64,000 nucleotides of DNA, from the IMG/VR virus record IMGVR_UViG_3300032235_000647, positions 62,001-126,000 of that record, one strand, 5' to 3'. Below the pieces are notes generated by a model. It was not told where the DNA came from. It saw only the letters and a list, made by a program, of their open reading frames with translations, and did no database searches. Shown piece after piece: positions 1,236 to 48,885 of the stretch. Within the stretch, counting starts at the first letter, position 1. Every line of letters begins with the position of its first letter. The translations under genes and the position numbers were made by a program. This DNA is from a virus.

Positions 1236-1487
1236 TTAATAAATACCAGGTCGGTCACCTTTTTTCATGGTATCTGCCCAAGTTTGAAACATTTTTTTAA
1301 TATCTGCTGGTAATTGTTTATCTCTTATCGTTAAAACTCCATCTTTACTGATATGGGCAATTATTTTATAGTCACCATTTTTTTCTTCGGCTCTATTCCA
1401 AATAGTTAAACCATTACCCATCCATCCCGAACCGATATCGTATTTTTTTGTTTCTTTAAGAATTGAAGTTAAACGAGTTGATTTCAT
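1236..1487 (-). CDS. Small protein with capsid-targeting-like leader KSTRLTSILKE
   Basis: This 83-residue protein starts MKSTRLTSILKE/T, a leader ending in I-L-K-E that fits T4-type prohead protease processing. The rest (KKYDIGSGWMGNGLTIWNRAEEK... to DRPGIY) looks like a small beta-rich domain with conserved Trp and Gly residues and no motif I recognise. A good AGGAG site precedes the ATG. The same 11-residue leader, and 33 identical bases of DNA, occur in the middle of the neighbouring 1500-4289 gene, so the two genes share a duplicated targeting peptide. A small protein carried into the capsid is inferred from leader and context. Confidence 0.75.
   Translation of the reverse strand: MKSTRLTSILKETKKYDIGSGWMGNGLTIWNRAEEKNGDYKIIAHISKDGVLTIRDKQLPADIKKMFQTWADTMKKGDRPGIY
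1452..1484 (-). repeat. 33-bp direct repeat, copy 1 (leader KSTRLTSILKE)
   Basis: These 33 bases are identical to 2580-2612. Here they encode the start of the 83-residue gene; in the second copy they lie inside the adjacent large gene. They are a likely recombination footprint. Confidence 0.85.
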
Positions 1488-1499
1488 TAGTATAATCTC

Positions 1500-4289
1500 C
1501 TATCTAAATTTATTAATCAAGGATCTAAAACGAGATCCAAGTGAACCTTTTTTTGATTTATCAGCATCCGATTCTCTGTCACGATTTTGAGTAGGTGGCG
1601 GAGGAGGAGGCGGTGGCGGTGGAATTGAACCTGCTGGTCTTGGTTTCACACCTGGTGCACTTCCACTCTTTGGAATCGGTGGAGGTGGAGGTGGAGGAAG
1701 TTTACGAGCAGGTGCTGCAGCCTTTGGTGCTACCGTAGGTGGAACTTTAACCGAAGGTTTAGTATCCCACTTACTATTAGGTGCAACTGCTTTTGAAGAA
1801 TCCCATCCACTTGGTGCATTTTTTATCCAATCTGGCTCTTCCCATGCTCCTCCTTTTGAAGTTGTAGGTGGAGGAGTTTTCAAAGATGGTTTTCCACTAG
1901 GTGGTGGAGGTGGAGGTGGCGGTGGAACCGCACCTTTTGGTCTTACACCAGGAGGTGTTCCAACAGATTTTCCACTAGGTGGAGCAATAACTGGTGGTTT
2001 AGCCTTTACACCAGGAGGTGGACCGAGTGGTGCCTTTGGTGCAGAAGGTGGAGCAATAACTGGTGGTTTAGCCTTTACACCAGGAGGTGTTCCAACAGAT
2101 TTTCCACTAGGTGGTGGAGGTGGAGGTGGCGGTGGAACCGCACCTTTTGGTCTTACACCAGGAGGTGGTCCCATAACTTTAGTTCCAACAGGTGGTTGAG
2201 CATTTTTAGGAGGTGGACCCATTACTTTAGTTCCAACTGGTGGTTGAGCATTTCTAGGAGGGGCACTTGTCACCTTAGTTCCCATTGCTGGTTTAGCATT
2301 AGTTGGAGGTGGACCCATTACTTTAGTTCCCATTGCTGGTTTAGCATTAGTTGGTGCTTGTTGTTTTACATCCGGAGCGTGCTTAAACATATTCGAACCT
2401 TTTATTGCAGCACCTGCTGGTTTTTTTGGTTCATTTCCTGCACTTGATGACTTAGAATCAGTTGGTGTATATTTCCCACTATCATCTTTCTTAAATGTAG
2501 GTGCATTTGCATCCTTTTCCTTGCCCTTTTCCTTATATCTACCATATCCAATATGGGTATATTTATCATCCTCACTTGCTTCTTTAAGAATTGAAGTTAA
2601 ACGAGTTGATTTACTCTCTTTAATTACTGATTGAATTGTATCTGCTAATTTGTGAAAACCATTCATTCTTAGAGTATACGCGATACCATCAATTGCAGTA
2701 TCACCACTCCATTCTGCTTCTTGTGAAGCAGTTGTTCCTAAATTTCTAGCAAATCTATCAACATCATCGGTATACTTAGATGCATATTTTGCTCGAATTG
2801 CATTCATCTTTTCTTTATAATTAGGGTCATCCATTGATGGGTAATCTGGTTTTTCTGCCAACTCAGGTTTTCCTTCTAATTTAGCAACCAATTCTCTTGC
2901 TTCACCATGGAAGTTCGAATCAGTTAATGCTTCAACTGCTGCTTGAGCCATTTGTTTTTGATATTCTTCTTTACCTAATTTCTCAGGAGTAATACCATAC
3001 GAATCTGCTTTTGCTTTTACTGCTTTATTTACCTTTGGATTACCTTTTCTTTGTTGTTTAGGTTGTGATTTGGGTTCTTCCATTGAATCATCAAATGATT
3101 TTGCATCATTCCAATCATCAGGAACTATGAATGTATCACTACCATAGGTTTGAATACCTTTAACGGTTCCCATACCAACAAAGGTTGGTTTACCGTTAAT
3201 AACCAATGTTTGGTTTTTTGGATTCATTACTACTTCACCACTATATTCTTTATCACCATCCTTATAGACTACGGGTCTTCCTACTTCAAAGTCATCACCC
3301 CATCTATCTGGTTTTGATGATTTTGGTTCATCTTTTTTAGGACCCTCTTGATTTGCATCAGCCTTCTTAGCGGCAACTCCAATTTCTTCAGCAAATTTGT
3401 TTGCCATAGGAATTGCATCCTTGATATCCATATCAATTACAATAACTTTCATGTTAGCAGGTTTTCCATCTGCAATTGCGGCGGAAGTTACGGCTGCCCA
3501 TCTATGGTGACCATCAATTACATATCCATCTCTACTCACATAGATTGGGGCTGTTATTGCTGGATGGTTAGGGTCTTTTTCTAATGCCTTTGACATACCA
3601 GCTACTTTAGCACCAACCAATTCAGATTGAGTTGCTTTTAATCTATCGGATGGTATTTCAGTTTCTGCAGTTTTGATACCTTTTTCCTTCAACATTTTTT
3701 TGAACACTGGTTCAGTATCAACTTCACCACTAGCATCAACTGCCATTTTAGAAGCAGGAGAACCAGGAGTTGGTTTTCCTTTGAATTGTGGCATCTCTTC
3801 ACGAGGAATACCAGCATTACCTTCACAATATAAGTTAGTTCCAGGAACTGTTATTTTACACAAATTGAAGTTTGGTGCAGCTTCTCCTTTTTCTTTTGCT
3901 TGTTTTGCAAGTTCTGCTAACTTATCAATCTGCATTGAGATTTCTTTCTTCTGTGAATCAGGTATTTTATTTATGTCAGATTGTCCAGTAAAAGTTTCTT
4001 TATCTGCCTTCGGCATTAATGTTGTAAGTTTACTTGAAGAAACTTTTGGAGTATCTGATTTTTCTTTTTTATCCGAAGTCTTTGGTTTAGCAAAAATATT
4101 TACCTTTGGAGTATCTTTTTTAGAATCTTTACCACTTGTAGGCTCATCGGATTTAATAGGAACATATTTTCCTTGGTCAGTCTTTTTAAAAGTCTGAGCC
4201 TTAGGGTCTTTTTCCTTACCTTTTTCTTTATATTTACCATACCCAACGTGAGTATATTCGGCCTCTAAAAGTAAATTTTTTAATCTCAT
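1500..4289 (-). CDS. Modular head-associated polyprotein: ParB-like fold plus proline-rich region
   Basis: I place the start at the ATG of MRLKNLLLE, with GGAGAT six bases upstream; a GTG four codons earlier also is open. The product is 929 residues. Order: leader ending LLLE/A; a YTHVGYGKYKEKGKEKD tag (about 12-45); a region with C-x-I-T-V-P-G...CEGN; a ParB/sulfiredoxin-like segment with DGHHRW at 259-264; charged linker; a second leader KSTRLTSILKE/A (about 559-569) and second tag; then several hundred residues of P-P-P-P and (K/R)P.G.K repeats like formin FH1 regions, ending in a basic tail. The ParB-like family includes nucleotide-hydrolysing or nuclease-like members, but activity here is unproven. 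The internal leader suggests two genes fused, or a precursor cut into two packaged parts. It lies just downstream of the prohead protease. Confidence 0.75.
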   Translation of the reverse strand: MRLKNLLLEAEYTHVGYGKYKEKGKEKDPKAQTFKKTDQGKYVPIKSDEPTSGKDSKKDTPKVNIFAKPKTSDKKEKSDTPKVSSSKLTTLMPKADKETFTGQSDINKIPDSQKKEISMQIDKLAELAKQAKEKGEAAPNFNLCKITVPGTNLYCEGNAGIPREEMPQFKGKPTPGSPASKMAVDASGEVDTEPVFKKMLKEKGIKTAETEIPSDRLKATQSELVGAKVAGMSKALEKDPNHPAITAPIYVSRDGYVIDGHHRWAAVTSAAIADGKPANMKVIVIDMDIKDAIPMANKFAEEIGVAAKKADANQEGPKKDEPKSSKPDRWGDDFEVGRPVVYKDGDKEYSGEVVMNPKNQTLVINGKPTFVGMGTVKGIQTYGSDTFIVPDDWNDAKSFDDSMEEPKSQPKQQRKGNPKVNKAVKAKADSYGITPEKLGKEEYQKQMAQAAVEALTDSNFHGEARELVAKLEGKPELAEKPDYPSMDDPNYKEKMNAIRAKYASKYTDDVDRFARNLGTTASQEAEWSGDTAIDGIAYTLRMNGFHKLADTIQSVIKESKSTRLTSILKEASEDDKYTHIGYGRYKEKGKEKDANAPTFKKDDSGKYTPTDSKSSSAGNEPKKPAGAAIKGSNMFKHAPDVKQQAPTNAKPAMGTKVMGPPPTNAKPAMGTKVTSAPPRNAQPPVGTKVMGPPPKNAQPPVGTKVMGPPPGVRPKGAVPPPPPPPPPSGKSVGTPPGVKAKPPVIAPPSAPKAPLGPPPGVKAKPPVIAPPSGKSVGTPPGVRPKGAVPPPPPPPPPSGKPSLKTPPPTTSKGGAWEEPDWIKNAPSGWDSSKAVAPNSKWDTKPSVKVPPTVAPKAAAPARKLPPPPPPPIPKSGSAPGVKPRPAGSIPPPPPPPPPPTQNRDRESDADKSKKGSLGSRFRSLINKFR
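1560..2370 (-). repeat. Proline-rich coding repeats
   Basis: The DNA here consists of imperfect GGTGGAGG-type repeats on the plus strand, encoding runs of seven to ten prolines separated by G-V-(R/K)-P/K and N-A-(K/Q)-P-x-x-G-T-K-V units. A unit of about 60 bases near 1899 recurs almost exactly near 2108. Such tracts are prone to length change by recombination. Confidence 0.8.
2580..2612 (-). repeat. 33-bp direct repeat, copy 2 (internal leader)
   Basis: This is identical to 1452-1484. It encodes an internal copy of the targeting-type leader in the middle of the large modular protein, immediately before its second YTHIGYG tag. Confidence 0.85.
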
Positions 4290-4291
4290 TC

Positions 4292-4489
4292 TTATCTCCA
4301 CTTATGGGTTGTTTCTACTTTTTTATTTGTATAAAGGTCTAATTTACCATCTTCGGTAAATTTAACTTCGTAATTTGTTTTTCTTATATCATTATGACCA
4401 CCTTTGTAGGGAGTATCGCCAACTTCTTTTTGGATTTTACCAACATTGATTGTATTCTTGGCCATATAATCTTTTATATCGAATGCCAT
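4292..4489 (-). CDS. Small protein downstream of the prohead protease, unknown
   Basis: This 65-residue protein (MAFDIKDYMAKNTINV...) lies between the protease and the modular polyprotein, with two to four bases to each neighbour. It has no transmembrane segment and, unlike its neighbours, no [LI]xE leader. A polar stretch KFTEDGKLDLYTNKK and a terminal KWR are visible. In T4 the scaffold follows the protease, but this is far too short to be a scaffold. It may be a small core or accessory protein; I do not recognise it. Confidence 0.65.
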   Translation of the reverse strand: MAFDIKDYMAKNTINVGKIQKEVGDTPYKGGHNDIRKTNYEVKFTEDGKLDLYTNKKVETTHKWR

Positions 4490-4493
4490 ATAA

Positions 4494-5084
4494 TTAGTGT
4501 AATTCTGTTATAATTTCTCTCATCAAGTCTTGTGCTTTGCAGTAATCACCACAAACAACACCCTCTTGAATGTTTTTATTTACTGATTCTTGTAATGGAG
4601 TCATGAACGCACCATGAGTAGATGGATTAGAAACGAAATCCCAACCAATCAATTCAAAGTCATCACCAACTTTTACCTTACCTTCACCTATATTCGTCAC
4701 CGAACCCATACCACGAGATGATATTCCTAATAGAATACCAGCTCTTAATAACTCTTTAAGTATATTTCCTGATGGAGTTGGAAGTATTTCAACGGTACCA
4801 ACCAAATCATCACCATCCCAATGAATTTCTCTTACATTGTGAGAAACATTCTTCAAGTTGATTACAGAAGAATCAGGATGGTCTAACTCGCCCAATGCTC
4901 TTCTTTCTTTAATAAGAGTTTCGTATTTCTTAGCCTCTCTCATTAAGATTTCTCTTGGATATATTCTACCATTTTGGTTTTCTGCACCTGCTCGTTGTAA
5001 AATACCCTTAACGAGAGTTCTTCCACTCGCGTCTTCGTTTATTCTACCTTCAAATAGGTTTGTTTCTATTAGTAATGATTTCAT
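4494..5084 (-). CDS. 21: Prohead core protein protease, T4 gp21-like
   Basis: This 196-residue serine protease of the T4 gp21 type would mature the prohead by cutting scaffold, core and capsid precursors after hydrophobic-x-E. The motifs are in order: RAGAENQNGRIYP (31-43), the catalytic-type histidine in GELDHPDSS (H69), the serine in LLGISSRGMGS (S122 or S123), and D149 in GWDFVSNPST. The length matches the family. Its own N-terminus, MKSLLIE/T, carries a candidate site consistent with self-processing. AAGGAT lies ahead of the ATG. It sits downstream of terminase, portal and core-like genes, as in T4, and is flanked by many proteins with matching cleavage sites. Confidence 0.92.
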   Translation of the reverse strand: MKSLLIETNLFEGRINEDASGRTLVKGILQRAGAENQNGRIYPREILMREAKKYETLIKERRALGELDHPDSSVINLKNVSHNVREIHWDGDDLVGTVEILPTPSGNILKELLRAGILLGISSRGMGSVTNIGEGKVKVGDDFELIGWDFVSNPSTHGAFMTPLQESVNKNIQEGVVCGDYCKAQDLMREIITELH

Positions 5085-8094: not shown

Positions 8095-9831
8095 TTATTG
8101 ATTATCTAGTATATTTGATTCGTCTAACATACCTTTTGTTTCATGTAGATATTTTCTCTTCGAAGAAATACCATTAATATATTTCAAGGCTTTTTGTTCG
8201 GATGTTCGATGTTTTAACACATTATTATTTTCCTTATCACCAAGAGGGTCTCTACCAAATGGTGATTTATCTTTACCATAGGTATTACCCTCTCGTGGTC
8301 TTCCACCTTTATCTTTAGTTGCTTCTAATTCAGTTTTAAGTTGATTGAGAGATTCTTCAACATCTTCAGGTTCATTCTGCATAGCAGGATCATTACCTTG
8401 GTCTTCAATAGAACGATATCTGAATCTATCTTTAATATCATTAATAATTTTAACTCGTTGAACCTCTTGTTCACCATCTGCTAACTTAAAGATATTCTCA
8501 TAAACCCAATCTTTAGATAACATATTTAGACCAGCTATATCGGTTGCTAATCTTACCTTTTCAGACCATAGGTTTACTCGTTCTTGTTCGTAAATAGTAG
8601 ATGGGTTAATCAAATTCAATTCAAAGTTTGTCATTTCAACATCTTGAATTCCCTGAGAATATAAGTGAATGATTGCAATCTTTGATAATTCTGATATGAT
8701 TGTTCGTTGGATTCTTTCAATAGTTCTAGCAAAACGAACATCTTCTGCAGCAAGAGTAGCCTTACCATTTACATTCTCATCATATCCCAAATATGCCTTA
8801 GGAATTTTAAGAGCAGCAAAAAGTTTATTTTTTAGATATTGAATATCTTCAGTTGCTGCATAATCCAAACCTGAAATATTTTCGATAGAAGTTCCACTAT
8901 CGCCACCACGAACTGGTAAGAAGAAATCTTCTGTTAGGTTTTGCATATTATACTTCAAGTTATACTCACCACTATTTCTATCAATAAAAGGAACTTTCTT
9001 CATCTTATTGATAATTCGTTGCATGTAGTTATCAACTTCTTGTGGTGGGATATTACCGATATCAATTTTGAACACTCTTTTCTCAGGTGCTCTCATGATT
9101 CGGTGAATCAACATGGCATCTTCCATAAGAGATAATTGTTTCCACAATCTTCTACCATTTTCAATCATAGATTTACCGTATGGAAGCCAGTTTGTATCTG
9201 ATAATAATCTAAAGTGTGCAATTTCAAAGTTATCATATTCCATTTTACCCATAGGGTCTTCGGTAATTTTAAACTTTACTGCGTTTGGATTATTTGGGTC
9301 TATAAGTTCTAATCTTTCAGTATTATAAACTGAATGTGGGGTTGCGTTTACGATACCCTTTCCTTCTGCAATTTCCAACCCAAGAAAAAAGTCACCATAC
9401 TTACACATATTTCGTGTCCATGGCCATAGGTTGAATTCAACATTTAGAATATCATAGAATAAATTCTCTAGGGATTCTTGAACTCTATTATTATCCGAAC
9501 GAATTGAAAGGATTGTTCCAAATTCGTTTTTAAGTGTAGATTCATCTGCATAAATATCTAATGCAGAAGCAATGATTGGGTCTTGGTCCATTGCATCATA
9601 ATCACGAAAAACCTCTCTACGAACTTGCTGATATGCCATTGATTGGGCACCACCAGCCTGCTCGTAAAAGGATTTCTGCAACTTAGTGTATCTGTCCCTT
9701 AACGATGATAAGTTCGTTTGTTGTCTTTCATCAGTATCAACTACCCTTCTCTTACCATCTTTATCAACCGTAACAATTGCCTTTGATGAAAAGAGTTTGG
9801 ATAATCTACCGAAAAATGAAGTATCTGCCAT
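8095..9831 (-). CDS. 20: Portal vertex protein, T4 gp20-like
   Basis: This 578-residue protein resembles T4-type portal (head-tail connector) subunits, which form the dodecameric ring for DNA entry and tail joining. Typical features are an N-terminal region leading to R-E-V-F-R-D-Y-D-A-M-D-Q-D-P-I-I-A-S-A-L-D-type sequence, then ADESTLKNEFG, the NLWPWTRNMCKYGDFFLGLEI block, and the long helical region with KMKKVPFIDRNSGEYNL and KIPKAYLGYDE. The size is close to the 520-620 residues usual for the family. The last 90 residues are charged and disordered. It follows the terminase and a small gene, in conserved T4-like order. Confidence 0.92.
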   Translation of the reverse strand: MADTSFFGRLSKLFSSKAIVTVDKDGKRRVVDTDERQQTNLSSLRDRYTKLQKSFYEQAGGAQSMAYQQVRREVFRDYDAMDQDPIIASALDIYADESTLKNEFGTILSIRSDNNRVQESLENLFYDILNVEFNLWPWTRNMCKYGDFFLGLEIAEGKGIVNATPHSVYNTERLELIDPNNPNAVKFKITEDPMGKMEYDNFEIAHFRLLSDTNWLPYGKSMIENGRRLWKQLSLMEDAMLIHRIMRAPEKRVFKIDIGNIPPQEVDNYMQRIINKMKKVPFIDRNSGEYNLKYNMQNLTEDFFLPVRGGDSGTSIENISGLDYAATEDIQYLKNKLFAALKIPKAYLGYDENVNGKATLAAEDVRFARTIERIQRTIISELSKIAIIHLYSQGIQDVEMTNFELNLINPSTIYEQERVNLWSEKVRLATDIAGLNMLSKDWVYENIFKLADGEQEVQRVKIINDIKDRFRYRSIEDQGNDPAMQNEPEDVEESLNQLKTELEATKDKGGRPREGNTYGKDKSPFGRDPLGDKENNNVLKHRTSEQKALKYINGISSKRKYLHETKGMLDESNILDNQ

Positions 9832-10374: not shown

Positions 10375-11952
10375 TTAAATTAACCAAGTTAGGTCTTCAT
10401 CTTGATTACCAACTTTCATTGACCACGGATTTGTATCAACCGATGAATTGCCACCAAACCCATCTAATGTAAATGAGTGTTGCTGTATACCACCAAGCGT
10501 TCGTTTAGTTAAATCAACACCTTCTTGTCTCAAACGAAGTGCTGTATCTCTAACCCAAAGAGCAATTCCTAATGCCATTACAAGGTCATCATTGTATCCT
10601 CTCATTGCTTCTGCACGATTTCCCGTCCATATAAAAGTAAATAATTCATCTATCAAACGAGTAGAACGAATTGTCACGTCTTTTTCTCTAATGTATTGTT
10701 CTAACTTGGAAACAATAAGTGGACGAGTTTTCATTGTAGTTGAAAATCCAGCAACCATACCTCTTTCTTCTGCTCTGAATTTATTATGTAGTTGATGTTG
10801 GACATCTACATATTTTAAATCCTTACTCATGTAGAATAGATTTGAATAACCCCTATCGATTACTTGTTGAATTACTGCCCAACCAATGTTTGCGTTTTCA
10901 ATTACTAATAGGGCCTCATTATAATCAGTAGAAAGGGATACTAAGAAATTTCCAAAATCCTTTGTATCCATTTTTCCTTTGTATTCAGCCACTTGTGTTG
11001 CAGTTTCCACATCAAATACATGACACGCAGAGTAATCCGCACCATCACCCCTAGCAACGTCAGCTACAACCATGTATCCTTTGTTGTAATCAGGGTATTC
11101 CCATCTCCATAGATTATGGTCTATCCAAGTTTTTTCAATAGGGTCTTGGCAATATGATTCTTTGTAGAATTGTAATAATTGTGGGTCAATAACCGTGTCA
11201 CCAGAAGAAACGAAGTCACAATCACATTCTTGTGCTGCACCTTTCGGTCCTAATAATCGTTCTTGTTCATCTCTCCATGCTTGTCCTCGTTCTGGGTGAA
11301 CTGACCAATGTAGTCGGATTGTATTAAATCCGTTTGTTTCATCTTCTGCACCTACCCATGTTTTATGGAAAAAATTACCTACACCATTTGGAGTAGAAAG
11401 TATAATTGCATTACCACCCGTTGAAAGGGTAGATTGTGCAGATATCCAAATCTCTTCAATTTTATCAATGAAAGCAGCCTCATCAAATACCAATAGGGAT
11501 AGTGCTTCGGAACGGCCGGCGTCTCCTGCAGCAGAAGTTGCTTTGATTTGAGAACCATTCGAATATCGTAGAGATAATTTATTGTCTTCTACGGTAGTTT
11601 GTTTTAACCAACTCGGTAGGTATTGATTCATAACTCGAACCTTCGTTACAAGGTTCTTTGCCACCTCTTGCTTGGTTGCAATTACCAACACATTAAAGTC
11701 TTGGTTGAATAACATCTTCCAAAGTGAAAATCCTGCTACAAGAGTAGATATACCAGTCTGACGGGATTTTAGAACGATATTATATCTATGGTCTTTAAAT
11801 TCGGTGAGAGTTCGTTCTTGGAACGGGTATAAGTGAAAAGGAATTTTGCCACGAACAGGATGTTGAATCATACAATACTTCTTCATAAAGTAAATTGGAT
11901 CCGAAGCACATTTTTGATACTCTAACTTTATTATTTCCTTTAAACTCGGCAT
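10375..11952 (-). CDS. 17: Terminase large subunit, T4 gp17-like
   Basis: This 525-residue DNA-packaging motor has an ATPase domain with a Walker A variant SRQTGIST (63-70), Walker B LLVFDEAA (153-160) and coupling motif STPNG (about 186-190). The C-terminal RNase H-like nuclease domain has acidic residues in VADVARGDGAD (D298), in VIENAN, and in YNDDLVMALGIAL. It would dock on the portal, package DNA into the prohead and cut the concatemer. The length and motif order are complete. It is separated by five bases from the spanin-like gene upstream and lies just before the portal module. Confidence 0.95.
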   Translation of the reverse strand: MPSLKEIIKLEYQKCASDPIYFMKKYCMIQHPVRGKIPFHLYPFQERTLTEFKDHRYNIVLKSRQTGISTLVAGFSLWKMLFNQDFNVLVIATKQEVAKNLVTKVRVMNQYLPSWLKQTTVEDNKLSLRYSNGSQIKATSAAGDAGRSEALSLLVFDEAAFIDKIEEIWISAQSTLSTGGNAIILSTPNGVGNFFHKTWVGAEDETNGFNTIRLHWSVHPERGQAWRDEQERLLGPKGAAQECDCDFVSSGDTVIDPQLLQFYKESYCQDPIEKTWIDHNLWRWEYPDYNKGYMVVADVARGDGADYSACHVFDVETATQVAEYKGKMDTKDFGNFLVSLSTDYNEALLVIENANIGWAVIQQVIDRGYSNLFYMSKDLKYVDVQHQLHNKFRAEERGMVAGFSTTMKTRPLIVSKLEQYIREKDVTIRSTRLIDELFTFIWTGNRAEAMRGYNDDLVMALGIALWVRDTALRLRQEGVDLTKRTLGGIQQHSFTLDGFGGNSSVDTNPWSMKVGNQDEDLTWLI

Positions 11953-13369: not shown

Positions 13370-16300
13370 TTAAGCGTAAAATATACCTAAAATCTGATTT
13401 AATGAGGCAAATGCACCAGTTAATTTGAAAGTTTTACCTTGATATGTAAAAACTATACCTTCGTTTGGAACAATTTTATCAGCCCCACCGATTGCTTGTA
13501 ATCTTCTCAACTCTAATTTCAATTTTTCAATCTTTTTAGGGTCTCCTGATTTCTCAACTTCCTTAATTGTTTGGTCTAATCTCTTTTTCATGTCTCGAAT
13601 TGCTGCATCAGGGTTTACAGTCAATACTGATGATGTGAATTGTAGAACTTCTGCTCCAACTCCCAAGAAAATATCCTCAAATTTCATTAGGTTTTGTTTT
13701 GTGATTTTAGCTTGGTCTTCTTTATCAGTTGTTAATGCCCAATTTAACACTTTTTCATCAGTTATGTTCTTACTATCAATTCGAAACCCTTTGTCACCAA
13801 ATGCCCATCTCTTGACCAATCCCATTTTGGTTTTATTATCCAACATTGATGGTGATTTTTTGTTAATATAATCATTCCACCATGCTTGATGATACTCAGC
13901 AACACCATCAGTATCTTTCAAACCGAATTCTTTTTGTAATTTTGAGATTTTAGCAGTATATTTTCCTTTTTTAGATGAAAGGTCTTGTGATTTTGGTAAA
14001 AAAAGAACAGGAGGTCCTTGAATTGTGTAATTATCTTGAACATCTTTGTTTATTTGTTTAATCATACCCGCAAGGATTTTTGCTGCTCCTTGATTTTCAC
14101 CTATTGCATTACCTTCATCATCATATTCCATCGTTCCATGGAACACTAATAGTGGTTGTCCGTAAGGAATTACATTGACTGATGTTGGATATATCACTTC
14201 AAGATTCATAAAACAAGCACCATCCTTAAAAATTTTAAATCGTTGGGCTTCTGAAAGTGATTTTATAGCATCGGTGAGGTCTTTCATTGCAAAATTATAC
14301 GCTTTTTCCAATTCACCTCTGCCAGTAAACTTATCTGCCACACCTTTTATGTCTAAAGCACCAGCACCTTTGTTTTTCAAGTGTCCTTTATTACGAGCGG
14401 CAACTAATCTTCCACCTACCCATGAGATTGCAAGGGCTTGACCATCAGTTTTTTCTCGTGCAAGTTCTAAATTTCCATCCAATGCACGATTAACAATATC
14501 TTTTAGTTGTCCAAAAGTTAAATTGATTTCGGTATCAAATGGATGATTCATGTGTCCATACGCACCACCTTCTTTTAAAAGGGATTCTTTAACGGATTGG
14601 TATTTTTTATTCCATACATATTGGAATAACTCACCCCATATAGGTCCATCAATTTTACCATCCCACTCGTAATTATATATAGGTTTACTATTAAATGATT
14701 TGCCAGTTTTATTAAGAGCAGTTCTTCCCAACCCTTTTACATTAGTAGATTTTGGTTTTACTAATTTTTTACCACCCCAAGTTTTTTCGAGTCGTTTCTC
14801 ATCTTTGTAATGTAAAAATAACTGATAACCTCTATTTACATCTTTAACCTTATCCACAATTTTCTGCATGAAATCTTCTACTTTTGGATATTTTTTTAAA
14901 AATGCTTCAACTCTTCTTGGGTCTATATATCTAGCAACTTCTTCTTTTAATTCATAAGTTTTTTTATGAATAGTATCAAGTTGTTTTCTCAACTTTTTCA
15001 TTTCCTTCTCATGATTATCCATCCACGCTTGGTCAGGATATCCATGAGGTGCTAATTCATCTATTTTTTTATTTATTTTTCTGAATTTATCCAATTCTAT
15101 TTCACGAAGTTGTTTTAATGCTTCCTCATAAGTTTCATGGGTACCTAATTTTTCACCACCAGTTTTACGATATACCACCCACTTATTATCTACTTTTTGA
15201 ATTGTTTCTTCTATCTTTTTAAGTTTCGTATAATATTTTGGGTCTTCAAATAGGTGGTCCATTGCTATTTCTTTTGCAATATCAGTATCAGTAGTATGTT
15301 CCCTTTCTACTTTATACCCCTTTTTGAATTCATCCATCAATTCTGAAACTGGGATATTGTGTTTTTTAGCAATATCAGATAAACTCATACCTTGTGATAA
15401 TCCACCTGGTATTTTAGATTCCTTTTTAATTGATTTCGTACTATTCATAAATTCTTGTGGTGATTTAAAATGAGCTTTTAATATACGATTGTATTTAGAT
15501 GTTTTGTTTCCATCACCATGTACCATTAGAGGTATTCCTTGGTCTACTGCTCTTCCTAATTCAAATTTTGATGGAACTTCGTGAACTAATTCAAAACCAG
15601 GTAGGCTTCCTAAATAATATTCTTGGGTATCGTACTCTTCCCAAGAATGATTGTACATATAGCCAGTAGCTCCTGCAGCATCGTTAGGAGTCATTGAACC
15701 CCTGACCCCATCATAAAAACCACTATTGACTTCATCTATTAAATTTTCCGATTCAAAGGATAGAATAGGATCAGATGATTTAAAATCATCCTTTCGCATC
15801 ACCGTTTTTGCAATGGCCTGATTTGCTTGTTTAACAAAAGGAATGTTTATATCATATCTTTTATCTCTAACAACTATTTCTTTATATTTCTCTAAAAATT
15901 CTTTAAATTTATTTTTTATTCTTGATAATCTTTTAAAGAATCCTGTTAATTCAGCATCAGAAATCGGTTTACCATTTCTTGGATCATTTACTCTATCAAA
16001 GAAATGTTGAGTAAACTCAATATCTTGTGGTGATAATTGTTTTTCTGCATATCTCTCAACACCTCTTAATTGAGACATACTCATTTCATTTGTTGGAGTA
16101 TCAAAAGTTAAATTACTTGGATATTGGTTAACCGATTTGAATCTATCTGCTTCCTTTTGCTTTAATGCAGGAAGGAATCTAAATTTGGCAAGTTTAACAA
16201 TTTTTCTTTTCTTTTTTTGAACCATTTGAGATACTCTAGTCTTTTGTGGTAAAGAGAGTTCATTATAAGGAGTCATTCCAAATAATCGTTGAGTCCATTC

Positions 16301-18859
16301 TTTCCTTACATACAAGTAAGCAAGTTTGTATGCTCTTTTATATAAAACTGAATATGGTTTTTTACGAATTTGTGTTCGTTGTTTTTTAATGTTGATTAGT
16401 TTTTTATTTTTTGCAAAACTCCATCTCCTTGCAGCTCTTTGTGCTTGAGTTAAAGCCTCATCCAAACTTTCTTCATCTTCCCACTCTTCTAATTCTGCAA
16501 AATCATACTCTTGTTGCTGAGAATCCCAACCACAAGTGTGACATAAATATGGATGTTCATCTTTTACTTCAAGTTCCCATTCATGTTCACATATTTCACA
16601 TTTAATAGAAGTTCCAGCAATGGATTCCATCATAATTGGATCAGAACCCATCCACTCATTTTTCATCATATTGTCTACTAACTCAACATGAGATTCACCA
16701 GCTAATACAATAGGAATTTTACCTTGTGAAGATAATTCTTTTGTTTTTCTTAACAAATTTACATCTCTGAATTTATTAAAAGATTCTTGTGCAGCATGTA
16801 TTTTTGTTTTCTTATCACCATAATCATCTGCAAAAGATAATCTATATAGAGTATCAACATCTTCTTCAGTTGGATTTGAATCCCATGTATTCGATAAAGG
16901 TAGATTTGCTTCTTGTGCTGATTGTTTTAAAAGTTCTTTACCTTTATCGGTTAAGTAATCTTCAGGTGACATATCTTCTACACTATCACCTTGTCCTATC
17001 ATACTTGCCCAATTGGCAGCCATGACTTCTTCATTACTTAATCCAGTTTCTTGTTCTTGGTATTTGTATAGTGGAGATTCATTATCAAATACACTTGTCT
17101 CGTCACCATCCCATGTATCAATTCCTGCACCAATTTTTTGGAATTTCTTTGCAGCATAATCCATTTCGCCACCAAATTCCAACTCACCCTCATCATTACC
17201 CATTCCACCTTCACCTACAAACACAACGTCTTTCCATCTATCTTGTGGTATAGTTGATTTTACTTTATCAAGTATATCATCAACCATTTTTTTATTTCCA
17301 TGAACGGTTCCAAATACTTGCCCACCACCTTCAAGTTCGGTTGTTTGAATTTCCTTACCTGATTTAGCTCCTTGAAATGTATTTACACCTGATTTAGGTT
17401 GTTGTTTTTTAGCAGGATCACTTGATGGTAGTGAATCCTTATATCCACTATCTTTTGAAAAAATATTTTGTTTTGGTTTATTTTCAGGTGTAGAATCACC
17501 ACTCTCTATTGGAGTGTATTTACCACTATCATCTTTTTTAAAAATAGGAGCAGAAGAATCTTTTTCTTTACCTTTTTCCTTATATCTACCATACCCAATA
17601 TGGGTATATTTTTCATCTTCTTTATCGGCCTCAAAGAAAACTTGCTTTCCTTCCTTAACCAATCTGAATGTGACAACTTTTTTGCCATTTATAGTTGGCA
17701 TCCCGTGTTCGTCTTTACCGATTGTTTTTACAACTACTTTTTTATTTTTGAATTTACCCATCAATAGAGTATCTCCAATTTCAACTGGTAACGTGATTGA
17801 TTCCTTAACAACCTTTTTATCAGATTCTTTTGAAAGTTCTCTAGCACCTTTAGCAAGTTGTGTTGAAAGTTTATCATCAACATTTAATGCTTTATCAACT
17901 ACTGAATAACCAACTAATGATGCAGTACGAGTCACGTGTTTATACCACTTATCATAAGCACCATTTACCATTACATCAAATTCACCCATTGGGTCTTTTT
18001 TACCAATAGCACCTCTTGGAAAAAATGTAACTCTACCACTTGGTCCTTCTGGGTATGTAATATAATCATCCATTGAATCATCCATAACCATATTGATTAT
18101 TTCCCATCCAATTTGTTGAGCTCTTTCGCCGTTGATGACTTTAAACGAATTATAGTCCGGTAAGAAAATAACAGGACCATCATCAACCATATCTTGGCCA
18201 AATCCAGATGATACTTCTATGAGTAAATCTTCAAGTTGTGTTTTAGATAATCTGATACAAGATTCTTGTAACTTATTTGTAATAAGGTTGAATATTGTTT
18301 TGTTGAATTTAGAATATGCTCTATCTACAAAAAAGTTCTTTTTTTGTTCTTCACTTCCACTTCCCAATCCAATTCTTACTTCGGTTCCACTTACTCCTCC
18401 GCCACCCTCAGGTGCCACATAAATATATCCCTTATCTTTATATCCTTCGGTTGGGTTACCATCCCACTTTGCAAAATATTTACCACCCAATCTACTTGCA
18501 TCTTTTTGGCCAACTACGGTTACAAAAGCAGTAGTTTTTTCATCAAACTTTTTTAGGATTTCGGTAGGTGCATAAGGATTCTTGACCTCGTATATTTTGT
18601 TTGATGGAACACCAAACATCGTGGTCATAATTTGTTTTTTCTCCTTAAAATTAAATGGAGATTTTGGTTTTTCTACTTTATCAGAAGTTCCTATAAATAC
18701 ATTATCTTTTCCGAACTTACTAACTAAATGTGAATAAGTTGCATAATGACCTTTATGAAAAGGTTGAAATCTACCTGCATAAATGACTACTGTCTTTTTT
18801 ATGGGGGTAGATTCCTCTAATAATATTTGTTCTACTAAATATCTTGAAAGTTCGTTCAT
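13370..18859 (-). CDS. Giant multidomain head-packaged polyprotein (NMNAT-like, Zn ribbon, ligase-like)
   Basis: The 1829 residues start with an amphipathic leader ending ILLE/E (residue 15-16). An adenylyltransferase-like domain (about 22-165) follows, with GRFQPFHKGH (30-38) and G-T-E-V-R. After a second candidate site, LLIE/V (212-216), comes a domain with GPSGRV and LVGYSVVD. A YTHIGYG tag (418-452) follows FFE/A. Next are a region with VLAGESH (718-724), a C-x2-C...C-x2-C zinc ribbon (754-776) and a very basic segment (800-910). Helical domains with EHTTDTDIAKEIAMDHL (1187-1203) precede site LLKE/G (1427-1431). The C-terminal domain has KTDG (1470-1473), N-L-E-V-I and EGIVF (1800-1804), resembling nucleotidyltransferase/ligase motifs I, III and IV. 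Packaging and cleavage are inferred. Confidence 0.8.
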   Translation of the reverse strand: MNELSRYLVEQILLEESTPIKKTVVIYAGRFQPFHKGHYATYSHLVSKFGKDNVFIGTSDKVEKPKSPFNFKEKKQIMTTMFGVPSNKIYEVKNPYAPTEILKKFDEKTTAFVTVVGQKDASRLGGKYFAKWDGNPTEGYKDKGYIYVAPEGGGGVSGTEVRIGLGSGSEEQKKNFFVDRAYSKFNKTIFNLITNKLQESCIRLSKTQLEDLLIEVSSGFGQDMVDDGPVIFLPDYNSFKVINGERAQQIGWEIINMVMDDSMDDYITYPEGPSGRVTFFPRGAIGKKDPMGEFDVMVNGAYDKWYKHVTRTASLVGYSVVDKALNVDDKLSTQLAKGARELSKESDKKVVKESITLPVEIGDTLLMGKFKNKKVVVKTIGKDEHGMPTINGKKVVTFRLVKEGKQVFFEADKEDEKYTHIGYGRYKEKGKEKDSSAPIFKKDDSGKYTPIESGDSTPENKPKQNIFSKDSGYKDSLPSSDPAKKQQPKSGVNTFQGAKSGKEIQTTELEGGGQVFGTVHGNKKMVDDILDKVKSTIPQDRWKDVVFVGEGGMGNDEGELEFGGEMDYAAKKFQKIGAGIDTWDGDETSVFDNESPLYKYQEQETGLSNEEVMAANWASMIGQGDSVEDMSPEDYLTDKGKELLKQSAQEANLPLSNTWDSNPTEEDVDTLYRLSFADDYGDKKTKIHAAQESFNKFRDVNLLRKTKELSSQGKIPIVLAGESHVELVDNMMKNEWMGSDPIMMESIAGTSIKCEICEHEWELEVKDEHPYLCHTCGWDSQQQEYDFAELEEWEDEESLDEALTQAQRAARRWSFAKNKKLINIKKQRTQIRKKPYSVLYKRAYKLAYLYVRKEWTQRLFGMTPYNELSLPQKTRVSQMVQKKKRKIVKLAKFRFLPALKQKEADRFKSVNQYPSNLTFDTPTNEMSMSQLRGVERYAEKQLSPQDIEFTQHFFDRVNDPRNGKPISDAELTGFFKRLSRIKNKFKEFLEKYKEIVVRDKRYDINIPFVKQANQAIAKTVMRKDDFKSSDPILSFESENLIDEVNSGFYDGVRGSMTPNDAAGATGYMYNHSWEEYDTQEYYLGSLPGFELVHEVPSKFELGRAVDQGIPLMVHGDGNKTSKYNRILKAHFKSPQEFMNSTKSIKKESKIPGGLSQGMSLSDIAKKHNIPVSELMDEFKKGYKVEREHTTDTDIAKEIAMDHLFEDPKYYTKLKKIEETIQKVDNKWVVYRKTGGEKLGTHETYEEALKQLREIELDKFRKINKKIDELAPHGYPDQAWMDNHEKEMKKLRKQLDTIHKKTYELKEEVARYIDPRRVEAFLKKYPKVEDFMQKIVDKVKDVNRGYQLFLHYKDEKRLEKTWGGKKLVKPKSTNVKGLGRTALNKTGKSFNSKPIYNYEWDGKIDGPIWGELFQYVWNKKYQSVKESLLKEGGAYGHMNHPFDTEINLTFGQLKDIVNRALDGNLELAREKTDGQALAISWVGGRLVAARNKGHLKNKGAGALDIKGVADKFTGRGELEKAYNFAMKDLTDAIKSLSEAQRFKIFKDGACFMNLEVIYPTSVNVIPYGQPLLVFHGTMEYDDEGNAIGENQGAAKILAGMIKQINKDVQDNYTIQGPPVLFLPKSQDLSSKKGKYTAKISKLQKEFGLKDTDGVAEYHQAWWNDYINKKSPSMLDNKTKMGLVKRWAFGDKGFRIDSKNITDEKVLNWALTTDKEDQAKITKQNLMKFEDIFLGVGAEVLQFTSSVLTVNPDAAIRDMKKRLDQTIKEVEKSGDPKKIEKLKLELRRLQAIGGADKIVPNEGIVFTYQGKTFKLTGAFASLNQILGIFYA

Positions 18860-45569: not shown

Positions 45570-45737
45570 ATGGATAAACAAAAATATACAACACTGCAAA
45601 TAAAAAAAGAAACCCATGAACTTCTCAAACATTATTGCGAAGAACATGGGCATAAATTAAGTGGATTGGTTGAATCTATGATTAAACAAAGAATTCAACA
45701 ACCAAAACCAACAAATGTATTACGAGTTAAAACTTAA
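45570..45737 (+). CDS. Ribbon-helix-helix-like small protein, the only plus-strand gene
   Basis: The 55 residues begin MDKQKYTTLQIKKETHELLK, continue HYCEEHGHKLSGLVESMIKQRI and end in a polar tail. The beta strand Y-T-T-L-Q-I followed by two helices with S-G-L-V-E is the pattern of Arc/CopG-type ribbon-helix-helix DNA-binding proteins. A repressor or activator role is likely by fold only. It runs opposite to every neighbour. Its last 11 bases overlap the end of the convergent Mre11-Rad50 gene. The upstream spacer has repeats ATATATAGAA twice (about 45536-45556). Confidence 0.7.
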   Translation: MDKQKYTTLQIKKETHELLKHYCEEHGHKLSGLVESMIKQRIQQPKPTNVLRVKT

Positions 45738-48700
45738 CTTTTGAGAATCCATTTACCTTTTTAATCTCTACTAAATTATCTACTACATCTCTCATAGAAT
45801 CAATGTGAGAAATAATCATTACAAAATCAAATTGTGTTTTTAGGTAGGTGAATAACATAAATAGTGATTGTAAGTTCTCACTATCCAATGTTCCGAATCC
45901 TTCATCAATCACAAGGAAATTAGGTCTCGGTAGGTTACACACATTGATTAGAGCGACTCGGATTGCTAATCCACTAATGAATCTCTCCATGCCACTACAC
46001 ATCTCTAAGCTCCATCTTTGGTCTCCATATACAAGATATGCATTGATGTTCTTACCATCCATCTCTAACTGCATTCCAAACTCTACAATCTGACCGAGAA
46101 TGTTATTTACTTCACCTTCAATCATTGGAAGAGCCTTTTCAATCAATTCATAAGAAACACCATCTTTACCAAGAGCATTCAAATAATACTCAAATAACTT
46201 GGATTGTTCTTCTAAACTTCGGACTTCTTTGATTCGCTCTTCAATGGTTTCTTTTTGATTTTGTAGAGCAGAAATCCTACCATTCAGTTTTAAAACCTCT
46301 GAATTCACTTTTTTCAAATCTTCCTTATTCTGGTTCAATTGACTACGAACTTGAGTTATTTCCTCTCGAATTTCTTTGTTTTTTTTGATTTGTTCTTCGT
46401 TCTTGTAATATTCACTAATCAGTTGTTCTTGCTGTTGAAGTTGAGTTTCCAACCTAACTTCTTCGGTTTCTTTTGTAGAAAGTTGATTATGGAGTTGAAT
46501 AATTTCCCTATCCAATTTATCTTCTTTTTCTTTGGCTTCTTGTAATTTGTCCCATTCTTCCTTAACTGATGTCAATGAATCAATAAGAAATAAAAGAGAT
46601 AATTTTTGTGATGTGACATCTGAATAATTATCTTCTGCAGTATCAATACGAGAATCTACCTCTGCCTTCTGGTCTCTAATAGATTGGGAGTTCTGCATAC
46701 AAATCTCACAATTTTCGTTATATTTATGAGATTCCAAGTGTTTTTTTCTATCGTAGTAAGAATCCAAACCAACTTTGATTTTTTCAATTTCAGATTCTAC
46801 TTTACTTAAACTTTGCCTAGCAGTGGATAATTTATCAATAGATTCTTTTAATTCATCCTCATCATACGAATCGATGATTTCTTCCAATGTCACTTGTAAT
46901 TCTTCTCTATGTGTGATTCTTTCTTGAATTGAACCTTTTGAATTTTGTACCTCTTCAATTTTATCTTTAAGGATTTGCAATCGTTTCTCTAACTCTTCAA
47001 TAGAAACACCACTATCTGAATTCAGTTTTACAATACGTTCATTTAACTTATTGATTTTCTTGTTTAACTCGTCTTCTTCGGTTTTTAATACCGTTTGGTT
47101 CATTTCCAACAACTTGAACTCATTTTTATCGGTTTTAAGTTTAGTTTGAATTTCTGCCAACTTTGTAGTAAAATCATCCGATTTGAATTTTCTGATAAGT
47201 GTTGCAGTATCTCGATTCTCATCTGATGCTATATTATACAACTTATCGAATATATCCACCCCAATGAATTGAGAAAGAATTTCCTTTCTTTCACTTTGTG
47301 ACTTGTCAATGAATAGAGCATTGTTTCCTTGAAGGGAAAGTGTAGTAAGAACAAAATCTTCAAACTTACCCAAGTATTTTTCAATGTTATCGTTGGTTTC
47401 TCTTCTTTGTTCTCCATTCAGAGAGATTTCGATACCATCCTCTACTTTCCAAAAATTTACATCAACTTTAACTGCAGTTTGTTTTCGAACAAACTTTGCA
47501 CTTCGTTCGATGAAATAATCAACACCATCAATTTCAAAGTTAAACTTACAATAAAAGAAGTCCTTTTGGTTATTTAGGATATTTTTAGCAGAATTGGTAC
47601 GAGAAGTTTTATCAAAGATACAAAATGAGAGAACATCAAAAAGAGAGGACTTACCACTTGCATTAGGGGCAAAGATACCCATGATACCCTGAGCCCTATC
47701 AAACCTAACCAAGTTATCTTCTCCGTATGAGAACATATTAGAGAACTCTAAACTCTTTGGGGTCCATAAAATGTTCTCTGTCAAATCATCTGAATTGATT
47801 TTGGTATTTAGTTCTTTATTTATCTCGGCAATCTTATCTAGTTCTGAATCATCCAATAGGTATTGTCTTTCTAAATAATCTCGGATAAGAGAATTCTGAA
47901 AAGTTTCATCTTTAACATTACCAACAATGTTCTTATTTAATTTGGTATTGGTTTTAAGTTGTCCGATTGTATCAGTTCTAGTTACGGTTACCTCATCTAC
48001 CTTAAACAACTTTTTAAGTTCCGAAATACAAATTTTCATTTGTGCAGCTTCGGTATTGGTGAATCGTAATCTCAATCTTGGATGGGTTGGTAGTTTAGTA
48101 TTCAACTCGTCATATACCCATTGTGGAATTTTACCACTCACTACATCTATGGTTAGGAATCCATAATCATTATATAGGTGATGTTCGGTAAATGTTCTGC
48201 TTGGGACATCCCATAGTAGATAACCATGATTCTCCAACATCTCACCATGATTTTGCTGAACCATTGAACCTGCGTACGCAACCCATTCATACCCTTCACC
48301 AAAAGTTTGTCTCTTGTGAATATCACCCAACATTGCCATATCAAACCCATCAAACATATCCACTTGGAATGAATTGGATGATACGGTATAGCCAATATCA
48401 GTTTGTGCTTTATTTACGGGCCCATGAAAAAGACAGATTTTGTTTTCTCCTGTTACATCGCTTCCTTTTGGCCAATTCTTCTTATCATCTAAAATAGAAT
48501 AGACAACAAAAGTTAAATTATGGATATTATAGATTCCAGTATCTCGGAGGTAATGGATTCGAGGATTGTTTAGATTTTCTACAATTGGAGTAAGAACATC
48601 CAATCTATGTGAGTTATTTAGATTACAATCATGATTACCTGTAATCAAAATAGTTTCTCTTAATTTCGAACATTCAGTTAGGAACCACGAAATTTCTTGT

Positions 48701-48885
48701 ACTAATTCAGGAGACATTTCAGTTTTAGCATGGGCAATATCCCCTGCTATATAAATTACCGAATCATTGATTCCATCTGTTTTTACTTGTTTTAGGAATT
48801 GTTCAAATACCAAACGATACTCTTTGTGTCTTTGCAGATTTCGAATGTGTAAATCTGCTAAGTGGTAGATTTTATTTATAACCAT
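45727..48885 (-). CDS. Fused Mre11-Rad50-type recombination nuclease/ATPase (gp47-gp46)
   Basis: This 1052-residue protein combines what T4 makes as gp47 and gp46. The N-terminal phosphoesterase has D-L-H (11-13), AGD (47-49), G-N-H-D (83-86), F-H-G-P and GDIHK (187-191). From about 370 the Rad50/SbcC part begins (LEFSNMFSYGED) with Walker A A-P-N-A-S-G-K-S-S (406-414). A coiled coil with zinc hook C-E-I-C (about 737) follows, then signature region and Walker B FLVIDEGFGTLD (about 990). It would resect DNA ends and remodel recombination intermediates. The fusion is in frame with no sign of frameshift. It overlaps the plus-strand gene at the end and the upstream gene at one base. Confidence 0.93.
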   Translation of the reverse strand: MVINKIYHLADLHIRNLQRHKEYRLVFEQFLKQVKTDGINDSVIYIAGDIAHAKTEMSPELVQEISWFLTECSKLRETILITGNHDCNLNNSHRLDVLTPIVENLNNPRIHYLRDTGIYNIHNLTFVVYSILDDKKNWPKGSDVTGENKICLFHGPVNKAQTDIGYTVSSNSFQVDMFDGFDMAMLGDIHKRQTFGEGYEWVAYAGSMVQQNHGEMLENHGYLLWDVPSRTFTEHHLYNDYGFLTIDVVSGKIPQWVYDELNTKLPTHPRLRLRFTNTEAAQMKICISELKKLFKVDEVTVTRTDTIGQLKTNTKLNKNIVGNVKDETFQNSLIRDYLERQYLLDDSELDKIAEINKELNTKINSDDLTENILWTPKSLEFSNMFSYGEDNLVRFDRAQGIMGIFAPNASGKSSLFDVLSFCIFDKTSRTNSAKNILNNQKDFFYCKFNFEIDGVDYFIERSAKFVRKQTAVKVDVNFWKVEDGIEISLNGEQRRETNDNIEKYLGKFEDFVLTTLSLQGNNALFIDKSQSERKEILSQFIGVDIFDKLYNIASDENRDTATLIRKFKSDDFTTKLAEIQTKLKTDKNEFKLLEMNQTVLKTEEDELNKKINKLNERIVKLNSDSGVSIEELEKRLQILKDKIEEVQNSKGSIQERITHREELQVTLEEIIDSYDEDELKESIDKLSTARQSLSKVESEIEKIKVGLDSYYDRKKHLESHKYNENCEICMQNSQSIRDQKAEVDSRIDTAEDNYSDVTSQKLSLLFLIDSLTSVKEEWDKLQEAKEKEDKLDREIIQLHNQLSTKETEEVRLETQLQQQEQLISEYYKNEEQIKKNKEIREEITQVRSQLNQNKEDLKKVNSEVLKLNGRISALQNQKETIEERIKEVRSLEEQSKLFEYYLNALGKDGVSYELIEKALPMIEGEVNNILGQIVEFGMQLEMDGKNINAYLVYGDQRWSLEMCSGMERFISGLAIRVALINVCNLPRPNFLVIDEGFGTLDSENLQSLFMLFTYLKTQFDFVMIISHIDSMRDVVDNLVEIKKVNGFSKVKF

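Follow-up and report, generated by a model that had tools for sequence, protein, structure and literature searches.

The window analysed here, a 64,000-nucleotide stretch of DNA corresponding to positions 62001-126000 of a 130,194-base virus record, contains a single open frame of 1829 amino acids (13370-18859, minus strand) in which enzyme-like domains and small modules are joined in one chain. These modules are shuffled among related phages and many of their joints carry a hydrophobic-x-Glu motif that matches the specificity of T4 gp21-type head maturation proteases. The likely reading is that the chain is packed in the phage head, cut into separate enzymes by such a protease and injected as a kit, with packaging, cleavage, injection and activity all being inferred. 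What we regard as new is that a multi-enzyme chain with shuffled modules carries head-protease signals at its joints, which joins the idea of polyvalent proteins (PMC5512222) with the targeting and gp21 system of T4.

The phage carrying this ORF is T4-like. On the same strand and following the ORF in transcription order are TerL (10375-11952), a T4-type portal (8095-9831) and the head maturation protease; the major capsid protein, Gp23, lies beyond the window, downstream of the protease. The modules of the chain and its proposed cutter are as follows, a slash within a motif marking the proposed cut:

18815-18859, minus strand: N-terminal leader, residues 1-15, MNELSRYLVEQILLE/ then E, capsid-targeting-like
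18215-18814, minus strand: NMN-adenylyltransferase-like module, residues 16-215, with GRFQPFHKGH and SGTEVR; Pfam, NCBIfam and PDB matches
17801-18214, minus strand: module M2, residues 216-353, no known identity, LLIE/V before it and VVKE/S at its end
17630-17800, minus strand: small KOW-like module, residues 354-410, ends LVKE/G and FFE/A
17495-17629, minus strand: 'tag' module, residues 411-455, DEKYTHIGYGRYKEKGKEKD; hydrophobic-x-E before the tag in 9 of 9 distinct contexts
16625-17398, minus strand: GESH module, residues 488-745, with GTVH, VGEGG and GESH conserved
16457-16624, minus strand: zinc-ribbon module, residues 746-801, CxxC...CxxC, ends SLDE/A
15731-16456, minus strand: basic module (802-923) and HFFDRVNDPRN module (924-1043, ends LIDE/V); phrog_23027 (3.6e-15), phrog_14518
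15404-15730, minus strand: module M8, residues 1044-1152, shuffled among relatives
15206-15403, minus strand: IF2_N-like/DUF5661 module, residues 1153-1218, Pfam DUF5661 3e-15; the EHTxxxxIAKEIAMDHL part
14570-15205, minus strand: helical modules, residues 1219-1430, with sites ELKE/E (1306), VKE/S (1425) and LLKE/G (1430)
13373-14569, minus strand: C-terminal ligase-like nucleotidyltransferase, residues 1431-1829; motifs, AlphaFold2 model and PDB matches
4494-5084, minus strand: head maturation protease of T4 gp21 type, the proposed cutter; Peptidase_S77 2.6e-27, PDB 5jbl 2.6e-18, phrog_207 1.3e-50

Residues 16-215 represent an NMN-adenylyltransferase-like (NMNAT-like) enzyme with intact catalytic motifs, the activity of which is inferred. 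HKGH is found within GRFQPFHKGH, SGTEVR follows downstream, Pfam CTP_transf_like matches at 8e-6 and the PDB sequence matches are NMN adenylyltransferases (2qjt at 9e-6, 1f9a and 1ej2). The protein meets the criteria for this enzyme family, namely (H/T)xGH and SxTxxR-type motifs together with a family match by both Pfam and NCBIfam. In diverged relatives, GPHH stands in place of HxGH.

The C-terminal domain, residues 1431-1829, is called ligase-like; motifs and weak fold matches favour the RNA-ligase type, and its activity is likewise inferred. It carries, in order, motif I KTDG (within EKTDG), AARNK, motif III FMNLEV, motif IV PNEGIVF and motif V FKLTG, thus meeting the RNA ligase superfamily criterion of ordered, conserved motifs KxDG, III, IV and V. 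Across 51 aligned sequences, with 46-93% identity to the first one, KTDG, AARNK, FMNLEV, EGIVF and KxTG are conserved and K46, D48, G49, E130, E376, G377 and K388 (alignment numbering) are invariant; the key residues are kept in two more diverged sequences. The nine best PDB fold matches of the AlphaFold2 model (pLDDT 80.5) are all RNA ligases, including archaeal 2vug and 8uce and T4 Rnl1 (5tt6), which share motifs I, III, IV and V in the same order. Each match is weak (best E 0.037), though nine out of nine in a library of 350,542 chains would be unlikely by chance. The domain differs from these ligases in its low sequence similarity, a large helical insertion between motifs III and IV and its head-gene context. 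Neither Pfam nor NCBIfam has a family for the C-terminal ~400 residues, and Pfam RNA_ligase scores only weakly (0.011) on the relative L101. Comparing profiles with T4 RnlB-type ligases gave no significant match, though the motif-I lysines aligned. BFVD matches of the ligase model are unannotated, free-standing proteins of ~400 aa from Ackermannviridae and other phages, with a common ligase-like fold. Weak PDB matches to ribosomal protein eS6 lie in the helical part, have no fold-search support and were treated as chance.

A first-pass annotation had described an 1829-residue ORF with HxGH, GESH, zinc-ribbon, basic, EHTxxxxIAKEIAMDHL and KxDG parts and four cleavage sites before its domains. 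All of this held: the frame opens with an ATG, each motif was located as described and the sites fall exactly at residues 15/16 (ILLE/E), 215 (LLIE/V), 410 (FFE/A) and 1430 (LLKE/G). Its adenylyltransferase-like domain is upheld by Pfam, NCBIfam, PDB and conserved motifs and its ligase-like domain by motifs, the fold match being weak in E-value; biochemical activity is inferred for both. Missing catalytic residues, which it had named as grounds for refutation, were not found, since the motifs of both domains are conserved. It overlooked that most modules lack an identifiable enzyme and that the central modules are shuffled among phages.

For the GESH module, AlphaFold2 gives a confident fold (pLDDT 86.9) with a disordered tail ending IMME/ (the 745 site), and a fold search of the model gave no convincing PDB match. 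Identity with a Tiki/TraB-type metalloprotease, suggested by a GxxH..E..GxxH pattern, is therefore not claimed. The homology start of the zinc ribbon is residue 747 (762 in stop-to-stop numbering, which is 15 higher); a Cas12f match over the ribbon (0.0036) was regarded as chance. A peptidase embedded in the chain, either GESH or the HExxH-like stretches found in relatives L020, L028 and L045, might itself perform the cutting, as proposed for other polyvalent proteins (PMC5512222). We consider this very unlikely, since most variants that keep the junction motif lack GESH, and neither the sequence nor the fold of GESH matches a peptidase.

Scans of viral contigs yielded 437 relatives in a first family, with 79 loci kept, and 304 in a diverged second family, with 80 loci kept, for which a Microcystis phage protein served as query; the ligase of L003 as query found zero contigs. 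Wherever one frame of the first family shows both, the NMNAT-like module is N-terminal and the ligase-like module C-terminal, and lengths range from ~780 to 1850 aa because intervening modules are gained, lost and reordered. M2 is found in some relatives and missing from others, the position of the KOW-like module (a mere label for residues 354-410) varies, the HFFDRVNDPRN module occurs in other phages by itself or with DUF5661, and the stretch after residue 1306 reappears behind another module in L020. Chains of the second family often have the NMNAT-like module in an internal position, and a P-loop Zeta/AAA_33 kinase precedes it in the two full chains scanned; the Microcystis phage protein has the NMNAT-like and ligase-like modules only. 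For the NMNAT-ligase protein of Microcystis phage Mel-JY01, the predicted cuts are LLSE/ and IIAE/GG. Other modules of the relatives include kinase, GNAT (in L030) and HD. In L101 and L145, a Zeta-toxin/AAA_33-like P-loop kinase, an NMNAT-like and a ligase-like module share one chain adjoining the terminase. The architectural criterion for polyvalent proteins, at least two functionally disparate domains in shuffled architectures, is met, and of the domains typical of the set described in 2017 (ARTs, zincin peptidases, GNATs) none was found in the window protein.

Hydrophobic-x-E is common by itself, with 36 occurrences in the 1829-aa protein, and therefore such sites alone prove nothing; comparison across relatives does. 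At the ligase junction the motif is placed exactly in 44-45 of 47 distinct upstream contexts, against a background of ~1.7% per residue: P4 is hydrophobic in 45/47, P3 is Leu or Ile in 47/47 (L31/I16), P2 is variable and P1 is Glu in 45 and Met in two. These two are L118 and L155 (KELLLM/GG). At the KOW-like junction, [LIVMF]xE occupies the same place in 17/20 distinct upstream contexts, with the same ~1.7% background. So that no boundary had to be picked by hand, 80 dereplicated chains were compared all against all and every homology start served as a breakpoint. The motif lies within -6 to +5 of 193 out of 382 starts, compared to 73.8 for random positions (sd 7.7, maximum 96, 300 trials); enrichment is mild for hE and hxxE and absent for hxD and hxK. 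Other large proteins encoded by these loci and this genome, put through the same procedure, gave no signal (39/190 vs 36 expected). Model confidence drops below pLDDT 50 both at the ligase junction (model residues 1-11) and in the GESH tail carrying the 745 site. Strong [LIVMF][LIVMF]xE sites are depleted three-fold inside the ligase domain (19 vs 60.5, sd 7.5). Inside the NMNAT-like domain hxE shows no depletion (133 vs 84.5 shuffled), and depletion was thus rejected as a general test.

These data bear on an alternative in which a packaged polyvalent protein is delivered whole, with the leader alone removed and the internal hydrophobic-x-E sites being remnants of gene fusion. In its favour, adjacent genes clearly do fuse, T4 Alt-type virion proteins lose terminal propeptides only (PMC9026906) and about half of the homology breakpoints carry no motif. 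Relics should decay, yet P3 and P1 are near-invariant and P2 variable over 47 contexts, and hxE is enriched where hxD and hxK are not. Whole delivery is thus unlikely. The motif is also weak at the basic/HFFDRVN and M8/DUF5661 boundaries; where it is missing, some modules may remain joined.

The ligase-like domain exists as a separate gene in 11 loci (L004-L009, L011, L012, L023, L032 and L035). These genes begin MIRLxKILNE[VI]LLKE/GGAYGHM, and the equivalent point in the window reads VKESLLKE/GGAYGHM; the domain therefore has a leader of its own when free and retains the last part of it when fused. The window encodes a likely second cargo polyprotein, in which two further copies of the tag are found:

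1500-4301, minus strand: likely second cargo polyprotein, 933 aa, with leader MRLKNLLLE/A followed by a tag, and internal KSTRLTSILKE/A followed by a tag
1452-1484, minus strand: 33 nt coding for a leader, identical to 2580-2612, with which a separate 83-aa ORF begins

The 33 nt coding for KSTRLTSILKE thus occur inside the 933-aa ORF (2580-2612) and, identically, at the start of a separate one (1452-1484). The 933-aa ORF also includes a stretch resembling ParB and a long region of proline-rich repeats.

Both sequence-level criteria for a T4-type gp21 substrate are met, since the 1829-aa chain has a short N-terminal leader ending in hydrophobic-x-E and a gp21-family protease is encoded among the head genes; its PDB match 5jbl is the T4 gp21 structure. 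The leader consensus M(N/K)xLxxFLVExIL[LG]E/[EA] is conserved among relatives. Eight other head-block ORFs begin with leaders of the same type, a modest excess in this block (9/15 vs 17/103, p=7e-4). In T4, processing of the capsid targeting sequence is set at residues 8 and 10, i.e., P3 and P1, scaffold proteins are cut into several pieces and mature virion proteins such as Alt have terminal propeptides alone removed (PMC9026906). The T4 gp23 site at E65, FLTE/A, aligns with LLDE/A of the window phage's Gp23, which we infer to be the maturation site of this capsid protein. A literature search for virion proteomics of related isolates found nothing usable.

Furthermore, each of the 160 loci showing both TerL and the cargo gene has TerL on the same strand, 0.5-3.4 kb downstream. 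The isolate Flavobacterium phage immuto has the same order of NMNAT-annotated gene, DUF5661 gene, TerL, portal, protease and capsid, and its DUF5661 gene, gene 190, carries the leader MKKSQLRQIIKE/A. A further alternative holds that the chain is a late intracellular enzyme fusion which never enters the head, its linkers being ordinary exposed helices. NMNAT-like and ligase-like enzymes do have obvious intracellular uses, but the leader, the TerL synteny, the gp21-matching junction motif and the absence of a signal in other large proteins render this very unlikely.

Packaged cargo cut into separate enzymes, as the first-pass annotation had proposed, is the best supported reading because of the protease nearby, the matching junction motif, the capsid-targeting-like N-terminus, the TerL synteny and the fission at the ligase junction; virion presence and cleavage remain inferred. 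According to this reading, the N-terminal leader would act like the T4 capsid targeting sequence and bring the chain to the core of the prohead. During head maturation, the gp21-type protease that the genome also encodes would then cut after Glu in [L/I/V]-x-E, both at the leader and at many internal linkers, where the motif is shown and cleavage is inferred. The predicted products are one enzyme resembling NMN adenylyltransferases, a number of small modules and a nucleotidyltransferase of the RNA-ligase type, which would be kept in the head and injected along with the DNA. Judging from the domains, they would most likely serve in the first minutes of infection as a ready-made kit that restores NAD and repairs RNA (or DNA) by resealing ends broken by host defences. 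The P-loop (Zeta/PNK-like) kinase beside the NMNAT-like and ligase-like modules of the diverged family is as expected for an end-healing and sealing set. Many joints carry their own cut signal, and modules could therefore be swapped by recombination without redesign of folds. Action on NAD, RNA or DNA ends in the new host, also suggested in the first-pass annotation, remains unproven.

A bolder reading, which we hold to be somewhat more likely than not, considers the chain a phage counterpart of the polyproteins of eukaryotic viruses, with the head protease acting in trans in the prohead to separate a shuffled multi-enzyme cargo at [LI]xE linkers. One address label would load the enzyme set in a fixed ratio, with modules freely exchanged between phages.

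Several known systems resemble this arrangement in part. Polyvalent proteins of phages and conjugative elements (Iyer et al., 2017; PMC5512222) share many disparate domains per chain, rapid shuffling, predicted capsid packaging and conflict-related enzymes (GNAT, peptidase-like). They differ in that embedded peptidases are proposed for their release, whereas here the joints carry the signal of the general head maturation protease, which would act in trans, and the conserved NMNAT-like/ligase-like pair was not met in the relevant sections of that paper. The internal proteins IPI-III and Alt of T4 (PMC9026906, PMC7411985) share the short leader ending in hydrophobic-x-E, the gp21-type protease and cargo injected with the DNA (here inferred), but each T4 cargo has a separate gene and leader, whereas here a single chain strings together numerous cargo modules, and many of the joints have a site. 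In the giant phages phiKZ, 201phi2-1 and SPN3US (PMC5694885, PMC9026906), many head proteins are similarly cut after Glu by a gp21 relative; these cuts remove propeptides, and no multi-enzyme chain was met in the relevant sections of the two papers.

If the proposal is true, tailed phages apply a polyprotein strategy to injected cargo and use the head protease to process it. From sequence alone, the junction motif would allow hundreds of phage proteins that lack annotation to be divided into candidate proteins for injection. It also predicts a virion-delivered NAD and nucleic-acid repair kit, with related genes present in isolated Flavobacterium and Microcystis phages.

Elsewhere in the window, a large block of nucleotide-sugar epimerase, glycosyltransferase and radical SAM genes (18999-39029, minus strand) separates the cargo gene from the tail fibre genes. 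Metallophosphoesterase-like and SbcC-like nuclease/ATPase pairs are usually encoded by two genes; at 45727-48885 (minus strand), metallophosphoesterase-like and SbcC-like parts form one chain of 1052 aa.
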